Shown: positions 21,769-61,943 of the stretch, piece by piece
How the letters are laid out: each line of letters begins with the position of its first letter
Position numbering within the stretch: position 1 is the stretch's first letter
Assembly (NCBI RefSeq): GCF_014646875.1
Contig: NZ_BMOC01000012.1
Coordinates: 1-64,000, forward strand
Reading direction: 5' to 3'
From: Halobellus salinus
GTDB taxonomy: Archaea; Halobacteriota; Halobacteria; Halobacteriales; Haloferacaceae
Length of the DNA: 64,000 nt
Notes under the pieces: model-generated
Databases searched by the model: none
The model's input: the letters and a program-made list of their open reading frames with translations, nothing else
Told to the model about the DNA's origin: nothing
Position numbers and translations under genes: made by a program

Positions 21769-21868
21769 CTCCATATAAAAGTACTGTAGAGGTCGTTGTC
21801 GCTACTAACCACAGGTGAGCGCTACATCAAGCGGTCAGACACCGACCGGCTTGCTCTTCGCTCCTCGG

Positions 21869-22192
21869 TCACACGATGCCGGACGCGAGTAGCGTACCGA
21901 GGACGAGCAACAGAACCGCGAGAACGCCTCCTCCCGTTAGCGGTCTGTTCTCCATTGCCTTTTGCTGGATGAGCATCTGCTCGTACTTCCCGCGGAACGT
22001 TTCGAGATTGTTCTCGTCGTAGAAGTACTTCGGTTTGAGCGCGAACCGTTCAGTGACCGCACAGCCAGTACAGACGGGCGTTCCCTCCAGGCGCTCGGTC
22101 GTGACGTGACTGCCACAGTTCTCGCAATGCCGTGTATCCGTGGTCGGTGCCCGAAGTCTCACAGTGCACACACCGATGGATACCGTCCTCAA
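21869..22192 (-). CDS. Zinc-ribbon membrane protein
   Basis: A 107-residue protein with a zinc ribbon (CENCGSH near residue 23 and CTGCAV near 42) and a charged helical linker (KYFYDENNLETFRGKYEQML). A single C-terminal membrane helix (GGGVLAVLLLVLGTLLASG) follows. The first ~18 residues look unlike the rest, so the true start may be internal. The gene lies between tRNA-Trp and the ~345-bp repeat A. Function is unknown; a small tail-anchored protein is implied. Confidence 0.6.
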   Translation of the reverse strand: MRTVSIGVCTVRLRAPTTDTRHCENCGSHVTTERLEGTPVCTGCAVTERFALKPKYFYDENNLETFRGKYEQMLIQQKAMENRPLTGGGVLAVLLLVLGTLLASGIV

Positions 22193-22241
22193 CAGTCACT
22201 GCGATGGCGTGTGGACTCTGGTGCGGCTCTGCAGCTGTGAA

Positions 22242-22586
22242 TTTGCCCGCCTCCCGCGGCTGAAGGCGCGGGAATCCGACCACCGGATCCGGGTGGTTGT
22301 CGCCCGTCGGTTCCACCCCGCACTCGGGGGGACCCGGCAACACGCCAGGGGGACTCCCGGTTGTCTCCCTCGTGGGGCTGTGGCCCGGCCACTGAGGCCC
22401 CATCGAACCCCGTGTCATCGCGGTGCGACCCGCCGCGGGTTCGCCACCCCCTGTGGTTCGGGGACATCTCACCGAGTCCGTAGCATCCACACCGGCAAGC
22501 ACCACGGGTATACAGGCACCGACAACCGGGCCACATGTCCGCTTGACCCCCATCGGCAGACGGGGTATCCGCTCGTATCCGTATCA
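22242..22586 (-). repeat. Repeat A: ~345-bp diverged repeat with terminal hairpin, candidate structured RNA or IS200/IS605 end
   Basis: This segment is collinear with 45229-45571 (repeat B). They share long identical blocks, for example GTCTCCCTCGTGGGGCTGTG and CACCGAGTCCGTAGCATCCA, separated by variable stretches and small indels. At the left end a hairpin CCCGCG-loop-CGCGGG is kept although its loop differs between copies. Read on the minus strand, the hairpin is at the 3' end, as in the right end and guide-RNA part of IS200/IS605-type elements. No open frame is conserved between the two copies beyond a short stretch. No tnpB is adjacent. Confidence 0.6.
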
Positions 22587-22647
22587 GCGAAACCTACATT
22601 ACTGGTTGTCAAGTAACATATCGTAAGACACTCTCTCACATTCCACT

Positions 22648-25600
22648 ATGGGACGCAATATTGATAATATCGCGGATGACCGTGCGCTAGGGATCCAGTC
22701 AGCGGGTGAAAACTACTACGATGAATTCCTCATCAAGCGTCCCAAAACGGAGTGGGCGCCGTATATCGACGAAACTGCGAAGGACATCTGCTCCGGTATC
22801 CAAATCAGTGACCTCGCTCTCTCAAAAGACGATTTCCGGCAGGAGTTAGGGACCTACTACCGGCGTGGGTTGAAGAAAACTGCCGGCCGCTATGCCGACC
22901 TCCCGTCAGTTCTGGAACAAAAGGTCAGCGACGAGAAACTCGGCCGCCTCGCGTACCAACTCAACGAACTCAGTCACGATATTTCGACGACTGATCTCGG
23001 CATCGATGATGTCGAGAAAGCAACTGAAGCCGTCATCGAGAAGCTCCTCGCAAGACACGTCGGAAAGGATTTGAACGTCTCATTCGACCTATCAGGTGCT
23101 ACCGTCTCCGACATCACGACACAGTTGTTCAGCAACGAGGCGGTCGCGTCGAACGTCGATCTACTGTTGCGCGAATTCGAAGACAGCGCGTCAGAGGGAC
23201 TGTTGGCACTGTTGGACAAGCCCCAAATGATGACGCCCCTGTGGAACCACCAGCGCGATGCGCTACAAAAGTGGTGGGAGCACGATCACCGAGGCTACGT
23301 CGATATGGCAACGGCCACCGGAAAAACTGTTCTCGGACTCGGCGCAGTTGCACTCAGCTATGGCGAGTTACACCCGGACGACCAGTCTATCGGTGGGCTG
23401 GTCAACACCACTGATTCGAGCGGGAGTGGCGACGTGCTCATTGTCGCACATAGTGAGTTAATACTCGAACAGTGGCGGCGGGAGTTCGAAAGACACCTCA
23501 ACATCCCTCAAGAGCGAACCACCGGTAGCGACGACATCACACTCGAGTGGGGGACGGTTCATTTCCGAACCCCGCAGTCACTCATCAATGAAGACCGCGT
23601 CGCGTACGACTTGGTGTTGCTTGACGAGGCCCACCACTACGCAACCGGGAGTGAGTGGGGCTCACTTCTTGAGGAGTTCGGTGGCGATATCTTGGCGATG
23701 TCCGGGTCCGTTGATGACGCTGGTAGCGACAGCGACCAGATCAAAGACCGCCTCACGAACAGTATCGGACCGCAGATCAAACGCTACACCATCACGAAGG
23801 CACGGGAGCACGGCGTCATTCCGTCGTTCGACTGGGAAGTCCACTATGCACCCTACGATGTCGTCGGTGACGACTTGAAGAAAACCGCAAGGCGTGCTGA
23901 ACAGTCGTTCCGTGACTTCCGCGAGCGCCTCAAACAAGGCGACCTGTCCCTCGATACGGATCGCCGACTCGAGACGTACGAGGACATCCGCCGGTTCTCT
24001 CACACGAAGGAAGGAAACACACTCAAGCAACAGGACGATGACTTCCGGGAGCTAGTCACTCGGTTGTTCTCGCGGCGAACAAAACAGTGGAATCTCTCGC
24101 CGGTGCTGGACGCCGTTGTAGACCTCGTCACCGAACACTACACGACGGAGAAGGTCGTTGTTCTCGCAGACAGCAACGCCCAAGTCGAGGAACTGGAATC
24201 CCGTCTCAACAACGTAGTCGCAACCCCCTCGGCCGTGCACTTGGTTTCGGGGTCACAGAGTCAAAAGGACCAGCGTGAAACAATCGACGAATTCGACGAG
24301 TCGGAAGGGGCTGGGATTCTCATCGGAACCGGTGACCTGCTCGGCGAAGGTGTCGACATGCAGCACGCATCGGTAGCGGTCAACATGGCTACCGGCGGCG
24401 TCAATCAGGAACTCGTACAGCGCATCGGGCGTGTGCTACGGAACCCAGCCGACACGCCAAAACACGCGATGTTCTACAACGTCGTCGGTGTCCCCCCGAC
24501 AGAAGCTGCAGCAGTTCCGCGGGAAGATGGCAAGCAACTAATCGAGCAGGCAGCAGGATTCTGCTCTCTTGGCCGGCGTTTCAACAAGCTCCCCGGATTT
24601 GCGACCGCAACATCGCTGGACGCCGACGTTGTCGAGGCACTCCTGGGTGAGGGAGCACGGTTCATCGACTCACTCGACGCGGATGGCGGCTACGACTGGA
24701 ACAAAGAGAGCATCAGTCAAGCCGATCTCACTGCCCTCCACAACGCTGTACAGAGCAACCCGGGGGATCTGGAGACGATTTTGGGGGAGTGGGAAGAGTA
24801 CGCGTGGGAGCACAGCGAGGAACTCGACGACGAAACGGACGTGGATGACTCAGAAGACCCGACAGACTCTACTGAGGCCGAGGAAGACACACCGGGTTCT
24901 GTGACGGATGATGCGGACACGTTAACCGCGACAAAGCAGGAGCGGATCGACGATCTCGTTCGCCTCCAACCGGCGAAGAACGCAACGCTCCAGCATCGAT
25001 GGGAGCTGTCGTCTGGCAGTGACGTTCACGAGTATTTGAATTCCGAACTTGCGGAGTATCACTTCCGTGACGCAGAGAGTCTGATCTGGGCCAGTGACGA
25101 GGCTGAAGCGCTCGTTAGTCGCGATCATCAAACTGGTGAGGACAGCACGCAGACGAAATTGGATCTCGAAATCGAGACCGATTCAGATCAGGAGCAACCG
25201 ACGGACGGCGAGCTTCTCGATGAGATCCGGCATCTCCAGTCAACTCTCGGAGACGTGCCGACAAAGGTTGAGATGACGAATAGGGGGGCATATCCTGTTA
25301 GCCAGTTTGAGGCCGCTTTCGGGTCGTGGTCTGCTGCAGTCCGAGAAGCGGGATTCGAACCGCACGGCCAACAACAAAGCAAGTACACCCGTGATGACGT
25401 TCTTGCTGGTCTTCGTGAGGTCGCCGCAACCCTCGATACATCCCCGTCAGTAAACGATATCAACGAGCATGCGCCGTTCAGTTCGACTGTCGTCTACAAT
25501 TACTTCGACTCGATCGGCGAGGCACGGCGAACGGCGGGTGTCGACCAACTGGACGAACGTGAGGACGCAACGACCGACCAAGCAGACGGTTCCTCGGTTG

Positions 25601-28600
25601 CACCGAACGAACTCGCCGAATACTACGAACTCTTCCGAACCTTTGCCACCCTTCTCGAACGCCTCATCGAATCCGAACAGACCGCGTATCGCGCCGGTAG
25701 CGACCGCCCGATGAACCAGTGGCGATCCAAGGTCAACGACATCGTATTCGGCAGCGGGCCGACTGAAGACAGCCCGAATTACGGCGAACAGCAGGGATCT
25801 CGCAATCCCCACACGATGTCGGCGTACCGCGAAGCCTTCGGTAACGGCGAAACCGTAACGCAGTACCAGACTGTTCAAGCCGAGCAACTGAGCGGCGACG
25901 ATGCCGCGGTGCTTATCGAACAGCAAGTCATCAACCCCGACGAACGCGTCTTCCTCCCAGTCACACCGGACTCCGGTACTCCACTTCCACTTGCCGTCGC
26001 TTCAGAGGAAGAGTTCAACGAGGCTTCAGCACTTCTCCAAGAGTTCCCCCCAGAACCCGACCCAGCTGGCGAGCAGTCCGGATCACAACCACCGTCCACC
26101 ACCAGCGAGGACGACAATTCGTCTGAAACGACCGTATCCCCCGAACCCGACGAGCCTACCTCAGACCAAGATCGGCACGACGAAGACGCAGCGTCCGGTA
26201 CTGACACCGGCGACGACACGGTCGAACAGACCATCTTCTGGGATCGAAACGTCGAGACAATAACCGAGCTCGAAGATGACGAATCGGTTGAAGACTCGTC
26301 TACTGCGAACGGTGATGAGCTGGATCGCAAAATCGACGAGTGGAAATCCCAGTTACTCGATCTCACCCGACGGAACAAGCTCGTCTCGTTCAAACCGACG
26401 AAGAGCAAGTCCCTCCCGTTCGAAGAGACAAACCCGACCACCATCGCTGCCGAACTCAACGGCAACGAAGAACTCCATCTGCGAAAACAACCAACAGACG
26501 GAACGGAAGACGAACCGGAACTCGCGGCGAACGAACTCTTGCCGACCCGGTCACCAGACGAAGCAGCGAACTCGCTGTCTCAGATCGAACTCAAAAACAA
26601 ACAATACCTCCGGGAGCGCGGTGTTGATTCGCTGTACCTGTCATTTGGGATGCTGCGGTGGTATAGCGTCGATTACAGCGACGAGGCAAATCGCTCCCCA
26701 CTGTTCCTCGCGCCCGTCGAGCTGGAAGCGCAGACCATTCAGGATGGCGAGAAACACGATTACGTTCTTAAGACAAAAGCTGAAGGCCTGCGGTTGAACC
26801 CCGCGCTGCGCAAGAAACTGGCTGCCGAACGGGACATCAGCCTTCCAGCAGACTCCGTGCTCTCGCTGACAGCGATTGATGCTGGCTTTGAGACGGTGTA
26901 CGAAACGTTGCGTGGCTTCGACCGGTGGACAATCCAACCGGACGTGGTTCTGGGAATTTTCGACTTCACCAAATTCAGTCTCTACACGGACCTGGAACGC
27001 AACAGATCCGCAATCAAGAGTAGTCAGATCATCCAGGCACTCAACGGCAATATGGAGCCGATACAGGCTGCTGAAGGCGATATTACAACGCCGACAGCAT
27101 CCGAACTCGATGGTGTCGTCGATCCGATCGACACCTACCAGGTTCTCGATGCCGACTCCAGTCAACAAGAGGCAATCGAGGCGGCGAAGCGTGGGAAAAG
27201 CTTCGTACTCCAGGGCCCACCTGGGACGGGCAAGAGCCAGACGATTGCGAATGTCATCGCCGAAAAGCTCGGTGCTGGCGAACGGGTCTTGTTCGTGAGC
27301 GAAAAGCAGGCTGCGCTCGACGTGGTGAAAAACCGGCTCGATGACGTTGGGCTTGGACGGTTCTGTCTCGAGGTCCACGGGGAAAAGGCGACCAACTCGG
27401 ACGTGCTCGGAAGCCTCGAAACCGAACTGAAAGCGCCACAGATCAAGCCTGCAACTGACCGCCCCAAGCGACTGCAGAAACTCCGCGAGCGGCGAGACAT
27501 GATCAACCAGTACGGCCGGCACGTGTTCTTCTCCCCGACTGGGTGGGATCTGACAGCGTACCAAGCGTTCGGGATCGTGAGCACCCACGCGGACGCCCCA
27601 CGGATCGATATCGGCATCACAGACCCACACCAGATCGGACAGGACACGCTGGAAACCGCCGTTGACGAGTTGGAGACGTTGGCGCGCTTTGATGACGTAC
27701 TCGACACGTACGATACGAGCCCGTGGCGGCACACAACGCTCCGGCAGTGGGGCGTCGACACCGGCGACTCGATGCGTGACTCACTCGACCAGCAACTCGA
27801 AACCATCGAGACACTGCAAACGGTTTCGGACGAGGTCGCGTCCGGGCTGGGCATTCACCCGGCGTCGTTCGCGGAGCTCAGTGAGTTCCGGCAACTGCTA
27901 CAGCACGTCTCGAAGCGGCCGGATGTCGCGTGGCAAGACGCCTTCTTCGACGGCTCGTTCGGACGGGAAGGCGGCCGGTTCGACGAACTCGCGGAGCTTG
28001 AACGGGAGCGTGACTCGCTCATCGCCGAGCTCTCGGAGCGGTATCAGCGGAGCTTCTTTTCGGCTAACGGCGGGGAGCTCAACAGTGACCTCGCCGCCTA
28101 CGGGCTATTGAAGCTTCTCAAGCCGAGTTACCGGTCCCTCAAGCGAAAAATAACGAATCACGCTCACGACGGCTACGATCCCGGCCACGACCAGCTACTC
28201 GAAGACACACGCAAGCTCGCCGAAATCCAGCGTATTGAGGATCGGCGAGACGACTTCCGCGGCGTCATTCAGCGCCTTGGACCGCTGTACCAAGGCGGCG
28301 ATACGAACTGGGACACCCTGACGCAAGCACAAGACTGGGTCGCCGACCTCGACGACTACGACACCACCTACACAGACCCGATCACCGACGCACTGATCGA
28401 CAATACACTGCCGCCCGTCGACCAGTTGATAGACCGAGTGCAAGACGCACTCTCGGAGTACGACGACGCAGCCGCATTCTTCCGCGACGCTATGGCTGTC
28501 GACCAAATCCGCGTCAATAACACACCGTTCCGACAAGCCCCCCTCCCCGACCTAGCGGACACCCTGCAAGAACTCCGCGAGGAAGTCCCGGCCTTACAGC

Positions 28601-30963
28601 GCCGCGTCCAATTCGAAGCCCAACTCGATACCGTCCGTGACACGATCTGTGCGGACTACATCGAGCGGTTCCTCCGCGGTGGCTACAGTCACGACCGCCT
28701 CGTGGCTGCCTTCGAGAAACGGTTCTACACGAAATGGCTCAACAGCGTCTACGAACAAACCGACCTGGGCTCGTTCAACGCTGACGCAATGGAACGGTAC
28801 GTCGAGGACTTCCGCCGGTTAGATCAGGAACAGCAGGAACTCGCCAAAGTACAGATCCAACACGAAGTCACCAAGCGCCGCCCGTCGTTGAATCTGGAAC
28901 ACGCATCCAGTTCCGAGCAGGTGCTTGTCCGTCGAGAAGCAGAGAAACAACGCCGACACAAACCGCTCCGTGAACTGTTCGACGAAGCCGGGTCGTTCAT
29001 CACGCAACTGACGCCGTGTTTCATGATGAGTCCGCTGTCGGTCGCGCAGTACCTCAAAGCCGACTCGATCCAGTTCGATGCCGTCGTGTTCGACGAGGCA
29101 TCACAGATTATGCCGCAAGACGCGGTGAGTAGCCTCATCCGGGCCGACCAAGCGATCATCGCCGGTGACACGAAGCAGCTCCCGCCGACGTCGTTCTTCC
29201 AGTCCGATGTCGAAACCACAGAAGATGTCAGAGAAGACCTCGACAGCATCCTCGAAGAGACCGCGTCGGTGCTCCCCGAGAAAAACCTCCGCTGGCACTA
29301 CCGCAGCCGCACTGACGAACTCATTCAATTCTCGAATCATCACTACTACACCAACAGTCTCCGGACGTTCCCGGAGAACAACCCCGATGTCGAAACCGGC
29401 GTGGACCTCGAATACGTCGAAGACGGCATCTACGACCGCGGTGGGTCACGGCAGAACGAAATCGAGGCCCAGCGCGTTATCGACCTGATCGAAGACCACG
29501 CCGAAGACCGCAGCGACAAGAGTCTCGGTGTCGTTGCGTTCAGCAGCGCGCAAGAACAAGCGATCCGTGACGCCCTCGCCGAGCGCCGCGAGGAGAATCA
29601 CGTCCTGGACGCGTTCGTCAGTCAAGACGACGTGCTTGACGAGTTCTTCATCAAGAACCTCGAAATGGTCCAAGGCGACGAACGCGACCGGATGATTTTC
29701 AGCGTCGGCTACGGCCCCGCCCAAGACGGCACGATCTCGACGAACTTCGGCCCCCTGAACAAAAGCGGCGGTGAACGACGACTCAACGTCGCCGTCACAC
29801 GGGCGAGAGAGCACATCGCCGTGGTGTGCTCGATGCTCCCCGGCGACATCGACCTCTCCGGATCCAACAGCACCGGCGCACAACACTTCAAAAACTACCT
29901 CGAATACGCCCGCAAAGGCGAACAGGCACTGGCCCGGAACGACCAGGTCACCGACACGCTCGATTTCGACTCCCAATTCGAAGAAGCCGTCTACGACGCG
30001 CTTGAATCGGACGGGCACGACGTAGTTTCACAACTCGACAGCGCCGGATACAGCATCGACCTCGCGATCAAACACCCCGACCGACCCGGGAAATTCATTC
30101 TCGGCGTCGAATGCGACGGCGCTGCCTACCACTCCTCGAAAACAGCCCGCGACCGAGACCGCACACGGCAAGCAGTCCTCGAAGACCTGGGCTGGACAAT
30201 CCACCGCATCTGGTCACCGGACTGGGCCTCGAATCGAAAAGCCCAGGTCCAAGCAATCAACGACAAAGTGGATTCACTCCTTGATGGGGACGCAGCGTCC
30301 ACGAGCGAAACAGCGGATGTCCCGACTCACGAGCCGGACGCGGTCCCGAGCAGATCAAAGTTCGACCACGAGGCGCTAACAGAGTTCGTTGCCCCGTCAT
30401 TAGCGTGGAACGATCGGTACTCGGTTGATAAGCGCGGACAGAGTACAGCAAACCGCAACGCAGTCTACGACACAGTCAGACAGCACGGACCGATCAAGTA
30501 CGATACTGCGATCCAAACGTACCTGGGTGTGTGGTCTCAATCACGCGCCGGAAAGAGGGTCAAGCGAGCGTTCAAAAGCGGCGTAGACACGCTCACGGAT
30601 CAGAACAAAATCTACCAGGACGGGGAGTTCCTGTGGCCGAAGCGAAGCGACCTCGATTTCACAGTTCGAGTAAACACCGAATCGGCGACGAGATCAATCG
30701 ACGAGCTCCCGAAAGAAGAGATTGCGAAAGCGGTCGCAGTACTCCTCAAAGAAGGGGGTCGAATGACTCGAGACGACGCGATACTGGAAACCACCCGACT
30801 CATCGGCTACCAACGACGCGGGAACCGGATCGAAAAGCGAGTGAGAGACGCAATCGACATCCTCAATCGCATCGGTGCAATCGACATCAACGAGGACGAG
30901 AAACTCACCCTCCAGCCCGACGGAGAACTTGACGGGAAGCTCCTCAACCGGATCTACAGTTGA
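22648..30963 (+). CDS. Giant SF2 helicase-DUF4011-SF1 helicase-Vsr-like nuclease fusion (putative defence protein)
   Basis: A 2,771-residue protein. Residues 1-195 are of unknown type. An SF2 helicase follows with motif I ATATGKT (~220), DEAHH (~325) and QRIGRVLRN (~590). Residues ~850-965 hold two copies of a helical module resembling homing-endonuclease-associated repeats, then a disordered acidic linker. A DUF4011-like domain begins at WKSQLLDLTRRNKLVSF (~1231). The SF1 helicase has GPPGTGKSQT (~1522), DEASQIMPQDA (~2148), GDTKQLPP, WHYRSR (~2215) and VAVTRARE (~2380). A Vsr/MTES_1575-like nuclease (VECDGAAYHSS, ~2486) and a DUF3320/winged-helix tail end it. The gene is intact, of lower GC than its neighbours, and has no partner gene. 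DUF4011-SF1-nuclease proteins occur in known helicase-nuclease defence systems; the added N-terminal SF2 helicase is the unusual part. The antiviral role is inference. Confidence 0.85.
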   Translation: MGRNIDNIADDRALGIQSAGENYYDEFLIKRPKTEWAPYIDETAKDICSGIQISDLALSKDDFRQELGTYYRRGLKKTAGRYADLPSVLEQKVSDEKLGRLAYQLNELSHDISTTDLGIDDVEKATEAVIEKLLARHVGKDLNVSFDLSGATVSDITTQLFSNEAVASNVDLLLREFEDSASEGLLALLDKPQMMTPLWNHQRDALQKWWEHDHRGYVDMATATGKTVLGLGAVALSYGELHPDDQSIGGLVNTTDSSGSGDVLIVAHSELILEQWRREFERHLNIPQERTTGSDDITLEWGTVHFRTPQSLINEDRVAYDLVLLDEAHHYATGSEWGSLLEEFGGDILAMSGSVDDAGSDSDQIKDRLTNSIGPQIKRYTITKAREHGVIPSFDWEVHYAPYDVVGDDLKKTARRAEQSFRDFRERLKQGDLSLDTDRRLETYEDIRRFSHTKEGNTLKQQDDDFRELVTRLFSRRTKQWNLSPVLDAVVDLVTEHYTTEKVVVLADSNAQVEELESRLNNVVATPSAVHLVSGSQSQKDQRETIDEFDESEGAGILIGTGDLLGEGVDMQHASVAVNMATGGVNQELVQRIGRVLRNPADTPKHAMFYNVVGVPPTEAAAVPREDGKQLIEQAAGFCSLGRRFNKLPGFATATSLDADVVEALLGEGARFIDSLDADGGYDWNKESISQADLTALHNAVQSNPGDLETILGEWEEYAWEHSEELDDETDVDDSEDPTDSTEAEEDTPGSVTDDADTLTATKQERIDDLVRLQPAKNATLQHRWELSSGSDVHEYLNSELAEYHFRDAESLIWASDEAEALVSRDHQTGEDSTQTKLDLEIETDSDQEQPTDGELLDEIRHLQSTLGDVPTKVEMTNRGAYPVSQFEAAFGSWSAAVREAGFEPHGQQQSKYTRDDVLAGLREVAATLDTSPSVNDINEHAPFSSTVVYNYFDSIGEARRTAGVDQLDEREDATTDQADGSSVAPNELAEYYELFRTFATLLERLIESEQTAYRAGSDRPMNQWRSKVNDIVFGSGPTEDSPNYGEQQGSRNPHTMSAYREAFGNGETVTQYQTVQAEQLSGDDAAVLIEQQVINPDERVFLPVTPDSGTPLPLAVASEEEFNEASALLQEFPPEPDPAGEQSGSQPPSTTSEDDNSSETTVSPEPDEPTSDQDRHDEDAASGTDTGDDTVEQTIFWDRNVETITELEDDESVEDSSTANGDELDRKIDEWKSQLLDLTRRNKLVSFKPTKSKSLPFEETNPTTIAAELNGNEELHLRKQPTDGTEDEPELAANELLPTRSPDEAANSLSQIELKNKQYLRERGVDSLYLSFGMLRWYSVDYSDEANRSPLFLAPVELEAQTIQDGEKHDYVLKTKAEGLRLNPALRKKLAAERDISLPADSVLSLTAIDAGFETVYETLRGFDRWTIQPDVVLGIFDFTKFSLYTDLERNRSAIKSSQIIQALNGNMEPIQAAEGDITTPTASELDGVVDPIDTYQVLDADSSQQEAIEAAKRGKSFVLQGPPGTGKSQTIANVIAEKLGAGERVLFVSEKQAALDVVKNRLDDVGLGRFCLEVHGEKATNSDVLGSLETELKAPQIKPATDRPKRLQKLRERRDMINQYGRHVFFSPTGWDLTAYQAFGIVSTHADAPRIDIGITDPHQIGQDTLETAVDELETLARFDDVLDTYDTSPWRHTTLRQWGVDTGDSMRDSLDQQLETIETLQTVSDEVASGLGIHPASFAELSEFRQLLQHVSKRPDVAWQDAFFDGSFGREGGRFDELAELERERDSLIAELSERYQRSFFSANGGELNSDLAAYGLLKLLKPSYRSLKRKITNHAHDGYDPGHDQLLEDTRKLAEIQRIEDRRDDFRGVIQRLGPLYQGGDTNWDTLTQAQDWVADLDDYDTTYTDPITDALIDNTLPPVDQLIDRVQDALSEYDDAAAFFRDAMAVDQIRVNNTPFRQAPLPDLADTLQELREEVPALQRRVQFEAQLDTVRDTICADYIERFLRGGYSHDRLVAAFEKRFYTKWLNSVYEQTDLGSFNADAMERYVEDFRRLDQEQQELAKVQIQHEVTKRRPSLNLEHASSSEQVLVRREAEKQRRHKPLRELFDEAGSFITQLTPCFMMSPLSVAQYLKADSIQFDAVVFDEASQIMPQDAVSSLIRADQAIIAGDTKQLPPTSFFQSDVETTEDVREDLDSILEETASVLPEKNLRWHYRSRTDELIQFSNHHYYTNSLRTFPENNPDVETGVDLEYVEDGIYDRGGSRQNEIEAQRVIDLIEDHAEDRSDKSLGVVAFSSAQEQAIRDALAERREENHVLDAFVSQDDVLDEFFIKNLEMVQGDERDRMIFSVGYGPAQDGTISTNFGPLNKSGGERRLNVAVTRAREHIAVVCSMLPGDIDLSGSNSTGAQHFKNYLEYARKGEQALARNDQVTDTLDFDSQFEEAVYDALESDGHDVVSQLDSAGYSIDLAIKHPDRPGKFILGVECDGAAYHSSKTARDRDRTRQAVLEDLGWTIHRIWSPDWASNRKAQVQAINDKVDSLLDGDAASTSETADVPTHEPDAVPSRSKFDHEALTEFVAPSLAWNDRYSVDKRGQSTANRNAVYDTVRQHGPIKYDTAIQTYLGVWSQSRAGKRVKRAFKSGVDTLTDQNKIYQDGEFLWPKRSDLDFTVRVNTESATRSIDELPKEEIAKAVAVLLKEGGRMTRDDAILETTRLIGYQRRGNRIEKRVRDAIDILNRIGAIDINEDEKLTLQPDGELDGKLLNRIYS

Positions 30964-31050
30964 CATTCCCCCCGGATTAAACAGCGGGGTTTGGGCCTCG
31001 CACTCTCCACTAGCAAGGCGAGTGCCTCGGGGGTTGACCCCGAGGCGATT
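30961..31050. mobile_element. Two opposed IS200/IS605-type right-end relics at the giant gene's 3' end
   Basis: On the minus strand a hairpin (CCCCG...CGGGG) ends in GGGGGGAATGTCA exactly at the stop codon of the giant gene, resembling the typical haloarchaeal GGAGGATGTCA element end. About 30 bases further, on the plus strand, CCTCGGGGGTTGACCCCGAGG with GCGATTCAC matches the minus-strand ends at 39913-39945 and 43915-43945. Neither has a transposase here. Confidence 0.55.
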
Positions 31051-31416
31051 CACTGACGGGCGTACTCTCACAACGCTGCCCCACAATCCGGACCGTAGCC
31101 CGGTGCAGGTGCGAGGTCAGGGCAGACTCGCGCTCAGGACAGCGCTGCCCATCGCTTCGATTCCCCTCGCTTGCCGCGGTGTTCTGCGAGGACCCCCGGA
31201 CACTCTCGAACTCCCACCCAATCTTCTCACGCAGACGGGATCAAGAGGTTGTCGAAAGTACTTTTCCGGTGACAGGAAGACCAGTAGTCGACTCAACCCG
31301 AGCGATTAACACCCCAAATCAAATTGGACCGCTTCCTGCAACGAGTCAGGACCTGTACTCTCGTCCGATGCTCTTCGAGAGGCTACTGTCGATGGAACGT
31401 TATGAAAGATGCAATC
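31051..31416. other. Intergenic stretch without recognisable features
   Basis: No plausible frame or RNA signature was seen. The short open frames here are Arg/Ser/Pro-rich shadows. The base composition stays mixed, suggesting leftover mobile DNA. Confidence 0.4.
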
Positions 31417-31545
31417 CTAAAACCCTCCCTTCAGGGCGAAGAGGATGTCAACGAGAACGTGGGAGTGCAGCAGCTCGTACTCCTCTGTTTTGCGTTCCCC
31501 ACTTTCGTAGAGGTTCAAAAGCCGATCGAGATCGTCCTGGAACAC
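31417..31545 (-). pseudogene. Short protein fragment, probably a 5'-truncated gene
   Basis: A 42-codon minus-strand frame reads VFQDDLDRLLNLYESGERK followed by TEEYELLHSHVLVDILFALK and a stop. The helical, well-mixed composition is unlike the Arg-rich noise frames nearby. An in-frame stop lies ten codons upstream and only a GTG is available as start, so it is either a tiny protein or the remnant of a larger gene. I do not recognise the family. Confidence 0.4.
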
Positions 31546-31603
31546 GACCCGCGTGTCGGCCCGGGTGTTTTAGCCGGTAGCGCACCGATCAACCGATACC
31601 GAA

Positions 31604-44894: not shown

Positions 44895-45107
44895 ACCTGG
44901 CCGGCCTTGCCGTCTTCCTGACCGGCCTCGCCGTCTTCCTGACCGGCCTTGCCGTCTTCCTGACCGGCCTTGCCGTCTTCCTGACCGGCCTCGCCGTCTT
45001 CCTGACCGGCCTTGCCGTCTTCCTGACCGGCCTCGCCGTCTTCCTGACCGGCCTTGCCGTCTTCCTGACCGGCCTCGCCGTCTTCCTGACCGGCCTTGCC
45101 GTCTTCC
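44895..45107. repeat. Minisatellite: ~10 copies of a 21-bp unit
   Basis: The unit is CTGACCGGCCTTGCCGTCTTC with C/T variation at one position. Read on the plus strand in the longest open frame it gives LTGLAVF repeated, and the C/T change is silent there. On the minus strand it gives KTARPVR (silent) or QEDGKAG/QEDGEAG. No start codon precedes the plus-strand frame, which is closed by a TGA before 44893. Confidence 0.85.
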
Positions 45108-52449: not shown

Positions 52450-53496
52450 ATGGTCTGGATACCAACTGACGTGCCCGTCAACAGAATCAAACCCGGCGCC
52501 GACCTCGCGGGTGCCGACCTCGCGGAGGCGGATCTCGAAGGTGCGGACCTCTCCGGAGCTGACCTCTCCGGAGCCGATCTCACCGGAGCGGATCTCAGCG
52601 GGTGCGACCTGGCCGATGCTGACTTCGACGGTGCAACCCTCGAGAACGCCGTCCTCCGGGAGGCCGAACTCGACGGCGCGACGTTCCGCGACGCAACCCT
52701 CGCCGGCGCCGATCTGAGTGGGGTGTCGTTCTCGACGCTCGCGACCCTCGAGAACGCGGACCTGGGTGGTGCGACGCTCGAAACAGCGGAGCTTCCGTAC
52801 GCCGATCTGAGTGATGCGACGCTACGGGGCGCTGATCTGAAGCGGGCTGATCTCCGGAGTGCGGACCTCGGGCGGGCTGACCTCCGTGACGCCGACCTGT
52901 ACGATGCGTCGCTCAAAGAGACACACCTTAGATCCGTGGACGCCCGCGGGGCCGAGTTCGTGCGCGCATCGCTCCAGGGTGCGGATTTAGTCGGCGCGGA
53001 TCTCACAGGTGCGAGTTTCAGAGACGCGTGGCTTCGGCAGGCGGACCTCACACACACCGAACTCGAGGACGTGAACTTCGTGAACGCAACCGTCGAATCC
53101 GCTGTGTACGGCGAGTCGTTGGCCGACGCCACGGATTTCACCGCGGTCGATCTCCGGAACGCACTGTTGTCGACCTACGATTTCAGCGGCGCCGACTTTG
53201 CCGGTGCGAACCTCAGCGGGGCACACTTGTACCGGACGGATTTCTCGAACGCCGATCTCACCGATGCGGACCTCACCGCGGCCGAGGAGGCACCCGGCGA
53301 GGGAACGACCGACCTCCAGGAGGCCGATCTGAGCGGTGCGACTCTCGCGGGGGCCGACCTCGAAGACGCAAATCTCTCGGAGGCAGATCTCGACGGCGCT
53401 GACCTGACCGGCGCGAATCTCACCGGCGCCGACCTCGAAGACACTAATCTCTCCGACGCTGATCTGACCGGGACCCGGCTCGAAGACGGATCATAA
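52450..53496 (+). CDS. Pentapeptide-repeat protein
   Basis: A 348-residue protein built almost entirely of pentapeptide repeats of the A(D/N)LxG type, starting GADLAGADLAEADLEGADL at about residue 16 and running to the end. An irregular 40-residue segment lies around 195-235 (HTELEDVNFVNATVESAVYG). Such proteins fold into a right-handed quadrilateral beta helix. Functions range from gyrase protection to structural roles, so none can be assigned. The ATG at 52450 precedes VWIPTDVPVN, a short non-repeat cap. Confidence 0.92.
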   Translation: MVWIPTDVPVNRIKPGADLAGADLAEADLEGADLSGADLSGADLTGADLSGCDLADADFDGATLENAVLREAELDGATFRDATLAGADLSGVSFSTLATLENADLGGATLETAELPYADLSDATLRGADLKRADLRSADLGRADLRDADLYDASLKETHLRSVDARGAEFVRASLQGADLVGADLTGASFRDAWLRQADLTHTELEDVNFVNATVESAVYGESLADATDFTAVDLRNALLSTYDFSGADFAGANLSGAHLYRTDFSNADLTDADLTAAEEAPGEGTTDLQEADLSGATLAGADLEDANLSEADLDGADLTGANLTGADLEDTNLSDADLTGTRLEDGS

Positions 53497-56287: not shown

Positions 56288-56425
56288 ACTGATCCGTTCG
56301 TCCCCGGGGGTGAAAGAGACACCGACACACCGGAGGAGCCGGCCCACGGTCGGGTGCGGATACAGGGTCAGTGAACCGCCCCGGGGGAGAACCGACAGGG
56401 GACCGCCGCCACGCGCTCGAAGGGG

Positions 56426-56519
56426 GCGATCGACCTCGCCGTCACTCCTGGTAGGCGATCGACCTCGCCGTCACTCCTGGTAGGCGATCGACCTCGCCGT
56501 CACTCCTGGTAGGCGATCC
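56426..56519 (+). repeat. Three 29-bp tandem repeats over a gene stop (plus partial fourth)
   Basis: Perfect copies start at 56426, 56455 and 56484, and a partial one at 56513. Each copy contains, on the minus strand, ATCGCCTACCAGGAGTGA, the last five codons and stop of the DUF5799-like gene, whose true stop lies in the third copy. Confidence 0.92.
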
Positions 56520-61011: not shown

Positions 61012-61943
61012 TCGAGGACCAGCAAGCCAGCACCAAACACGATGCGAATGGGAAAGGTGAGCCAATCGAATTAGAGAGCGAACAGAAAAAATGGATTCGT
61101 GGAGACAGGCAAGCCAGCAACTGGCTTGCCGAAGAGGTTCGACCGATATTCATCCATGACCGAGGCGCTGACTCATTTGCCTTCTGCCGTGAAGTGACAG
61201 ACGACTTGGACGCTGGGTTCATCGTCCGTGCGAATCAGAATCGCTGTATTCAGACGCCGTCCGGAACGGACGGGCGTCTGATTGACTGGAGTGAAGATCT
61301 CCCCGAACACGGTCGCACATCTATCGAGATCGAACAGGGGAATGGAAGGAAAGCCCGAGAGGCTGAGCTGATCGTTAAAGCCGGCTCGTGTGAGCTGCTT
61401 CCACCGCAGAACGATCCAACTCACACCAATCCAGTCGAGGTAAACGTCGTGCGAATCGACGAACGCGGAGAGCAAGACGACCCGATTCAGTGGGTGTTAC
61501 TCACCACTGAATCGGTCGCTAGCTTCGGTGACTCGCTGAGTGTGGTAGAGTCCTACCGCGTTCGATGGACGATCGAAGACTGGCACAAGGTGTTGAAAAC
61601 TGGCTGCCGGATCGAGGAACGCCGGCTGGAAACGTGGGAACGGATGGAGGTTTTGTTGAGTGTCTATTCGGTGATTGCGTGGAAGGTGCTAGAGTTGCGA
61701 GAGCTTGCTCGGGGAGATATACACCGTTCACCGGAGGCTCTCTTGAGCGAGACTGAGCGGTCAATTCTGGAAATTCTGTTTCCAGAATTGACCGATAATG
61801 AGGCTCAAGCGTACGCAATTGCGGTTGCGAAGATCGGTGGCTATCCTGACCGGAGCTCTGATCCACCGCCTGGTTGGGAAACGATGTGGAAAGGTCTCAA
61901 GAAAGTTCAGACCTGGGCGGAGGGATACGAACTGCACTCCTGA
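61012..61943 (+). pseudogene. 5'-truncated IS4-family (IS50/Tn5-like) transposase
   Basis: The frame continues open from the end of the dehydratase gene. Transposase homology starts at about 61018 (EDQQASTKHDANGKGEP) and runs about 300 codons. It holds a catalytic Asp in IHDRGADSF, VESYRVRWTIEDWHKVLKTG with the YREK-type signature of IS4/IS50 transposases, and the C-terminal tail ending WAEGYELHS. The N-terminal third, with the first catalytic Asp, is missing, so it cannot be active. The IS50-like terminus follows immediately. The junction lies right at the dehydratase stop. Confidence 0.85.

Follow-up and report, generated by a model that had tools for sequence, protein, structure and literature searches.

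A two-helicase and nuclease fusion protein of haloarchaea, a candidate single-protein defense enzyme

In Hachiman (HamAB), a superfamily 2 (SF2) helicase that serves as the sensor is paired with a nuclease (PMC12278908), and the PbeABCD system, which includes the SF2 helicase PbeA, requires phosphorothioate in trans (PMC6459918). The anti-phage protein Hhe (HheA) carries a DUF4011 domain, a superfamily 1 (SF1) helicase and a Vsr/MTES-type nuclease in that order. The same order is found in the C-terminal half of the protein described here, where it is preceded by an SF2 helicase unit in a single fused chain. The gene lies at 22648..30963 on the plus strand of the window, which is the 64,000-nucleotide stretch of Halobellus salinus contig NZ_BMOC01000012.1 from position 1 to 64,000. 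It starts with ATG and encodes 2771 residues, numbered 1–2771 below, in an open frame with no internal stop, as a preliminary description of this DNA had stated, and orthologues were found. Because the fusion spreads between distant haloarchaea and swaps its tail, it is probably a mobile single-protein defense enzyme acting against invading DNA, the probable targets being viruses or plasmids.

The C-terminal unit falls among known candidate defense families. Residues 1223–2747 match positions 4–1540 of the 1550 in the PADLOC profile PDC-S37 with 1388 bits, a score not set alongside the PADLOC calling threshold, and residues 1207–2723 match positions 337–1903 of the 1903 in the ProA model (NF058533) with 1269.7 bits. 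The latter score lies under the 1500-bit equivalog cut-off, and the first 336 model positions are unmatched. For Hhe the scores are 541 bits in PADLOC and 805.5 bits with NCBIfam NF042953, well under the 2000-bit equivalog cut-off of that model. The PDC-S37 profile has no SF2/HNH_repeat unit, whereas the fusion has about 1,200 extra residues in front, so that it goes beyond a family defined by the profile's domains with no further enzymatic unit. Literature text searches on ProA and PDC-S37 found nothing usable. The C half is thus an already catalogued kind of candidate defense protein, and therefore only the fusion and its SF2 unit are new; the new variant architecture proposed earlier stands for these two and not for the C-terminal part, and the SF2 unit has not simply been added to it.

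Within the C-terminal unit, Pfam places DUF4011 at residues 1235–1391 (26350..26820; this and all following features of the gene are on the plus strand). An SMUBP2-like SF1 helicase, assigned by Pfam, sequence and motifs, occupies residues 1505–2395 (27160..29832), with AAA_11/AAA_12 matching up to residue 2395, GPPGTGKS at residue 1523, DEASQ at 2149 and WHYRS at 2216, motif I and DEASQ being set apart by a large insertion. It is followed by an REase_MTES_1575 nuclease of Vsr-like fold at residues 2444–2539 (29977..30264; Pfam, motifs and model), in which the motifs YSxDLA, ECDGxxY and RDRDR are conserved and VECDGxxY begins at residue 2487. The structure model of the nuclease and tail, with a predicted local distance difference test (pLDDT) of 76, matches the catalytic domain of I-Bth0305I (3r3p) with a target template-modeling (TM) score of 0.77 and a root-mean-square deviation of 3.1; a sequence search of the PDB with this segment returned no relatives. 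Residues 2546–2771 (30283..30960) form, according to the model, its resemblance to winged-helix proteins in the fold search and alignments, a tandem winged-helix tail that is variable and exchanged. The earlier assignment of a DUF4011-like domain and a Vsr/MTES_1575-like nuclease agrees with these Pfam matches. Its DUF3320/winged-helix tail is borne out as to the winged helices, but Pfam gives no DUF3320 match there, and that name occurs in the annotation ('DUF3320 domain-containing protein') of plasmid relatives of the C half.

The N-terminal unit, residues 1–1160, has an XPB/RAD25-like core by sequence, and the fold matches of its model, which is of moderate quality, include XPB, FANCM and Hef. 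The SF2 helicase core spans residues 191–640 (23218..24567; Pfam, sequence, fold and motifs) and comprises ResIII (199–344) and Helicase_C (488–599), with motif I at 221–227 (ATGKT at 223), DEAH at 326–329 and motif VI at 591–598 (QRIGR at 591); the SF2, SF1 and nuclease motifs are all where they had previously been placed. In front of the core the model shows an all-helical domain (residues 1–190, 22648..23217), seen here only with the haloarchaeal SF2 family, and in a phylum search most non-haloarchaeal matches begin near residue 180, leaving the helical first 180 residues unmatched. Behind the core lie the N-terminal half of the haloarchaeal family DUF5797 (residues 759–835, 24922..25152; the first 77 of 163 Pfam positions), two HNH_repeat modules (PF18780; residues 852–964, 25201..25539, best copy 852–904), which are the 'repeat modules' of the preliminary description, and a domain shared with the C-terminus of stand-alone SF2 units (residues 982–1164, 25591..26139; matches in L077_7, L078_4 and L104_4). 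Ten fusion copies have two HNH_repeats and two have none; extra HNH_repeats were considered as the cause of length differences among fusions and rejected, most of the difference being in the tail.

No PADLOC model exists for the SF2 half itself, which scores 80 bits with PbeA and 53 with dnd_restrict_1. Like PbeA and the Dnd-restriction helicases it belongs to the SF2 class, and PbeABCD genes adjoin stand-alone copies of the unit; it differs from PbeA in lacking an HKD nuclease domain and in its score, a neighboring genuine PbeA reaching 543 bits. Hachiman may serve as a working analogy for the fusion, with no claim of homology, since HamB is Ski2-like, HamA is a DUF1837 protein and the two are encoded by separate genes.

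Among 392 genomes sampled from the order, the SF2 half was found in 43, the C half in 15 and both in one frame in eight (totals here and below count the window genome). A second scan, over named genomes, added Halosimplex, Halorientalis, Natronomonas gomsonensis and a Haloferacaceae metagenome-assembled genome (MAG), giving 12 fusion assemblies in all; other carriers include Halobacterium sp. KA-4, Halorubrum salipaludis, Halorussus litoreus, Actinarchaeum halophilum and YIM A00013. With only 8 of 392 order genomes and at least 11 other assemblies carrying it, the fusion is neither a core gene nor an assembly artefact. An artefact or a decaying pseudogene is accordingly an explanation we give almost no weight: remnant fragments do occur elsewhere (G010 and G012), but nearly all of the 12 assemblies have full-length frames, the motifs are intact and dN/dS is low. 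The Haloferacaceae MAG copy stops shortly after the nuclease, close to a contig end, and a thirteenth copy, in a Haloquadratum MAG, is truncated where its contig stops, a short way past the SF2 half. In G251 the C-half match contains one TAG, but this match overruns the frame end, and the frame of 2369 residues is open. All 12 fusions carry the catalytic motifs of the two helicases and of the nuclease, except that SF1 motif III in G251 and G405 does not conform to the pattern searched for. The ratio of nonsynonymous to synonymous substitution rates (dN/dS) in the core is about 0.05–0.1 where dS, which is near saturation, can be estimated, and the core is under purifying selection. No full-length relative of the fusion turned up in phage records or viral contigs, and a phage or viral origin was rejected on this ground. 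A bacterial fusion was likewise rejected: plasmid records contain none, all matches at the 30 best places begin no earlier than query residue 1197, and coverage of the query stays below 80% in every record.

The tree of the C half groups the fusions in a single clade (support 99/100); the tree of the N half does likewise once the truncated MAG copy is included with the fusions (99/97), and one fusion event fits both trees. On the G083 row of this analysis the word 'Natronomonas' serves as a label only. The nearest kin of the window protein is in Natronomonas, a member of another family, with 87% identity, and the Halosimplex and Natronomonas copies share 95–100% DNA identity over residues 1–1900. 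In the window the gene stands in a variable segment (21772..31597) whose flanks align with those of the closest sister genome, G004, at 75–90% DNA identity, 8.1 kb of other genes occupying the site there as against 9.8 kb in the window. From the near-identical copies in different families and the other cargo at this site in the sister genome, it follows that the gene moves horizontally between distant haloarchaea. No direct or inverted border repeats of a transposon were found above chance length.

The fusions differ strongly in what follows the nuclease, a tail of about 2 to 716 residues among whose contents are paired zinc fingers and a bacterial PH domain. On entering the tail, third-position identity drops from about 95% to about 40% for the Halosimplex/Natronomonas pair and from about 98% to about 57% for the pair of G083 and G092. 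Since silent sites drop as well, this reflects not only fast protein change but replacement of the tail, through recombination, in copies that are nearly identical elsewhere, which suggests a role in target recognition. The PH-like tail module is also found in other haloarchaeal proteins, including HNH_repeat proteins beside stand-alone SF2 units. A second stretch of lower identity in the Halosimplex/Natronomonas pair, at residues 1901–2300, lies within the insertion of the SF1 helicase and appears as a further recombined stretch (fusion genes L109 7878–18152 and L111 8001–16799).

In the single-protein defense enzyme that we favor, the N-terminal unit, with its helical domain, XPB-type SF2 motor and HNH_repeats, would bind and travel along double-stranded DNA as a scanner or loader. 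The C-terminal unit, with DUF4011, an SMUBP2/Upf1-like SF1 helicase and the Vsr-like nuclease, would then unwind the DNA and cut or nick it, and the exchangeable winged-helix/zinc-finger tail would help to pick the target. To discriminate, the enzyme would rely on the structure of the DNA or on a target sequence and not on a methyl mark of its own. Defense activity, the direction of the motors, the coupling of the halves and the role of the tail are what we infer here, coupling from the fact that the fusion has persisted. The units might instead be merely tethered, each with its own defense activity and no joint reaction. This would agree with the occurrence of each unit alone as a complete protein without excess co-occurrence, and with the acidic, weakly conserved junction at residues ~1138–1215 (26059..26292), where residues 1161–1215 show 28–44% identity versus about 80% for the helicase units on either side and pLDDT is low at 1132–1160, the end of the N-unit model. 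Such tethering is unlikely, however, given that the fusion has been kept as one clade down to about 51% identity with both units catalytically intact by their motifs.

Several observations weigh against the enzyme as we picture it. Outside the fusions, the two halves are encoded separately and without linkage, the SF2 half in about 36 genomes and the C half in nine, and they occur together only in G336, on different contigs, versus 0.8 co-occurrences expected by chance; the fusion therefore does not go back to two genes that had to occur together, and cooperation of the halves is not an old, obligatory partnership. No precursor in the form of distinct N and C genes lying side by side was found. 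The earlier suspicion that the halves are normally separate, unrelated genes joined by an artefact is thus right as to their separate occurrence and wrong as to the artefact, the fusion being a long-lived lineage of its own. Also on the negative side, the model of the N-unit reaches no more than moderate quality (pLDDT 68, predicted TM score 0.48), the match of the nuclease fold to 3r3p has an E value of only about 0.006, and no other defense gene was found near the fusion in the window.

Some relatives of the fusion, on the other hand, adjoin ZacC (1125 bits), HmaC/HmaB, a GajB-like UvrD helicase or a DrmD/PLD-type helicase. Together with the PDC-S37, Hhe and ProA matches and the mobility of the gene, this context upholds the earlier proposal of a candidate defense system; the profile searches and the search for orthologues and their context that were called for at that time recovered the claimed domains, apart from DUF3320, and the 12 assemblies. 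It is hard to reconcile with a helicase-nuclease of DNA repair or recombination, an explanation suggested by the resemblance to XPB, Hef and SMUBP2 and made highly improbable by the patchy distribution, the horizontal movement, the variable site, the defense genes beside relatives and the PDC-S37/Hhe-type profile matches.

Stand-alone SF2 units have defense-type neighbors at 16 of 22 loci, compared with none of the 18 controls drawn from these genomes. These neighbors comprise Pbe genes (7 loci), a TGT-paralogue/HATPase pair (5), AddAB-like proteins (4) and a DpdJ-like helicase (4). The neighbor families were chosen from the same loci, and some of the loci are near-duplicates, points that also count against our reading and make the comparison strong but not a clean test. 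The SF2 unit is nevertheless a recurrent haloarchaeal defense-associated protein in its own right and not merely an added helicase. A gene adjoining many of the units encodes 2 to 13 HNH_repeats, and copy number differs widely among loci (13 copies by our own profile in L069 1806–6749 and 8 in L068 4838–7657, both on the minus strand). The family, which PADLOC does not contain, is found repeatedly next to PbeABCD-type genes in L065–L069, L100 and L104, where PbeA is short and lacks the HKD domain and a separate PLD-like gene is present in some cases. A trio of DUF6884, TGT-superfamily paralogue and HATPase stands beside SF2 units in L104 (1887–5151) and L077 (10826–14090) and is possibly a DNA base-modification module.

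These neighbors bear on two further readings. We regard it as possible, with less confidence than the single-protein enzyme, that the SF2/HNH_repeat unit is a general, uncatalogued sensor of invader DNA, joined in cis to an Hhe-like effector in this protein and elsewhere working with Pbe-type, TGT-paralogue, AddAB-like or DpdJ-like partner modules; the tail would then be a target-recognition module renewed by recombination, by analogy with restriction specificity subunits. Somewhat more doubtful is modification-linked restriction, in which the SF2 unit would read a host mark (phosphorothioate, 7-deazaguanine or methyl) and the fusion would attack DNA without or with that mark. The dependence of PbeABCD on phosphorothioate in trans (PMC6459918) speaks for it, as does the position of stand-alone units next to PbeA/PbeC (Dnd-like) clusters at 7 of 22 loci and next to a TGT-superfamily paralogue at 6 of 22. 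However, the fusion has no modification gene next to it in the window, among the scanned fusion relatives one is present only in the Halorubrum neighborhood (HmaB), and the TGT paralogue does not match the PADLOC DpdA model.

In the window the fusion gene is apparently monocistronic, has a G+C content of about 58% versus 65–70% in the surrounding region, and is neighbored by ordinary genes. No defense partner was called between its flanking genes, in agreement with the earlier statement that it stands unaccompanied, and around it there is neither a PbeC ABC-ATPase nor a DndE-like gene, both of which occur next to stand-alone N-units only. Elsewhere in the window, a second low-G+C patch holds a DDE transposase fragment (61194–61940), a small minus-strand open reading frame contains a 21-bp tandem repeat in 10 copies with 95% matches (44896–45107), a 29-bp repeat is present in 3.2 identical copies (56425–56518), and a pentapeptide-repeat protein with nine stretches is encoded at 52450–53493.

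If the proposed single-protein enzyme is correct, two motors and a nuclease would work on one chain, where many helicase-nuclease defense systems need several genes. The recurrence of the SF2 unit suggests that several archaeal defense loci have a sensor in common, and the recombining tail offers a direct handle on what such proteins recognize.
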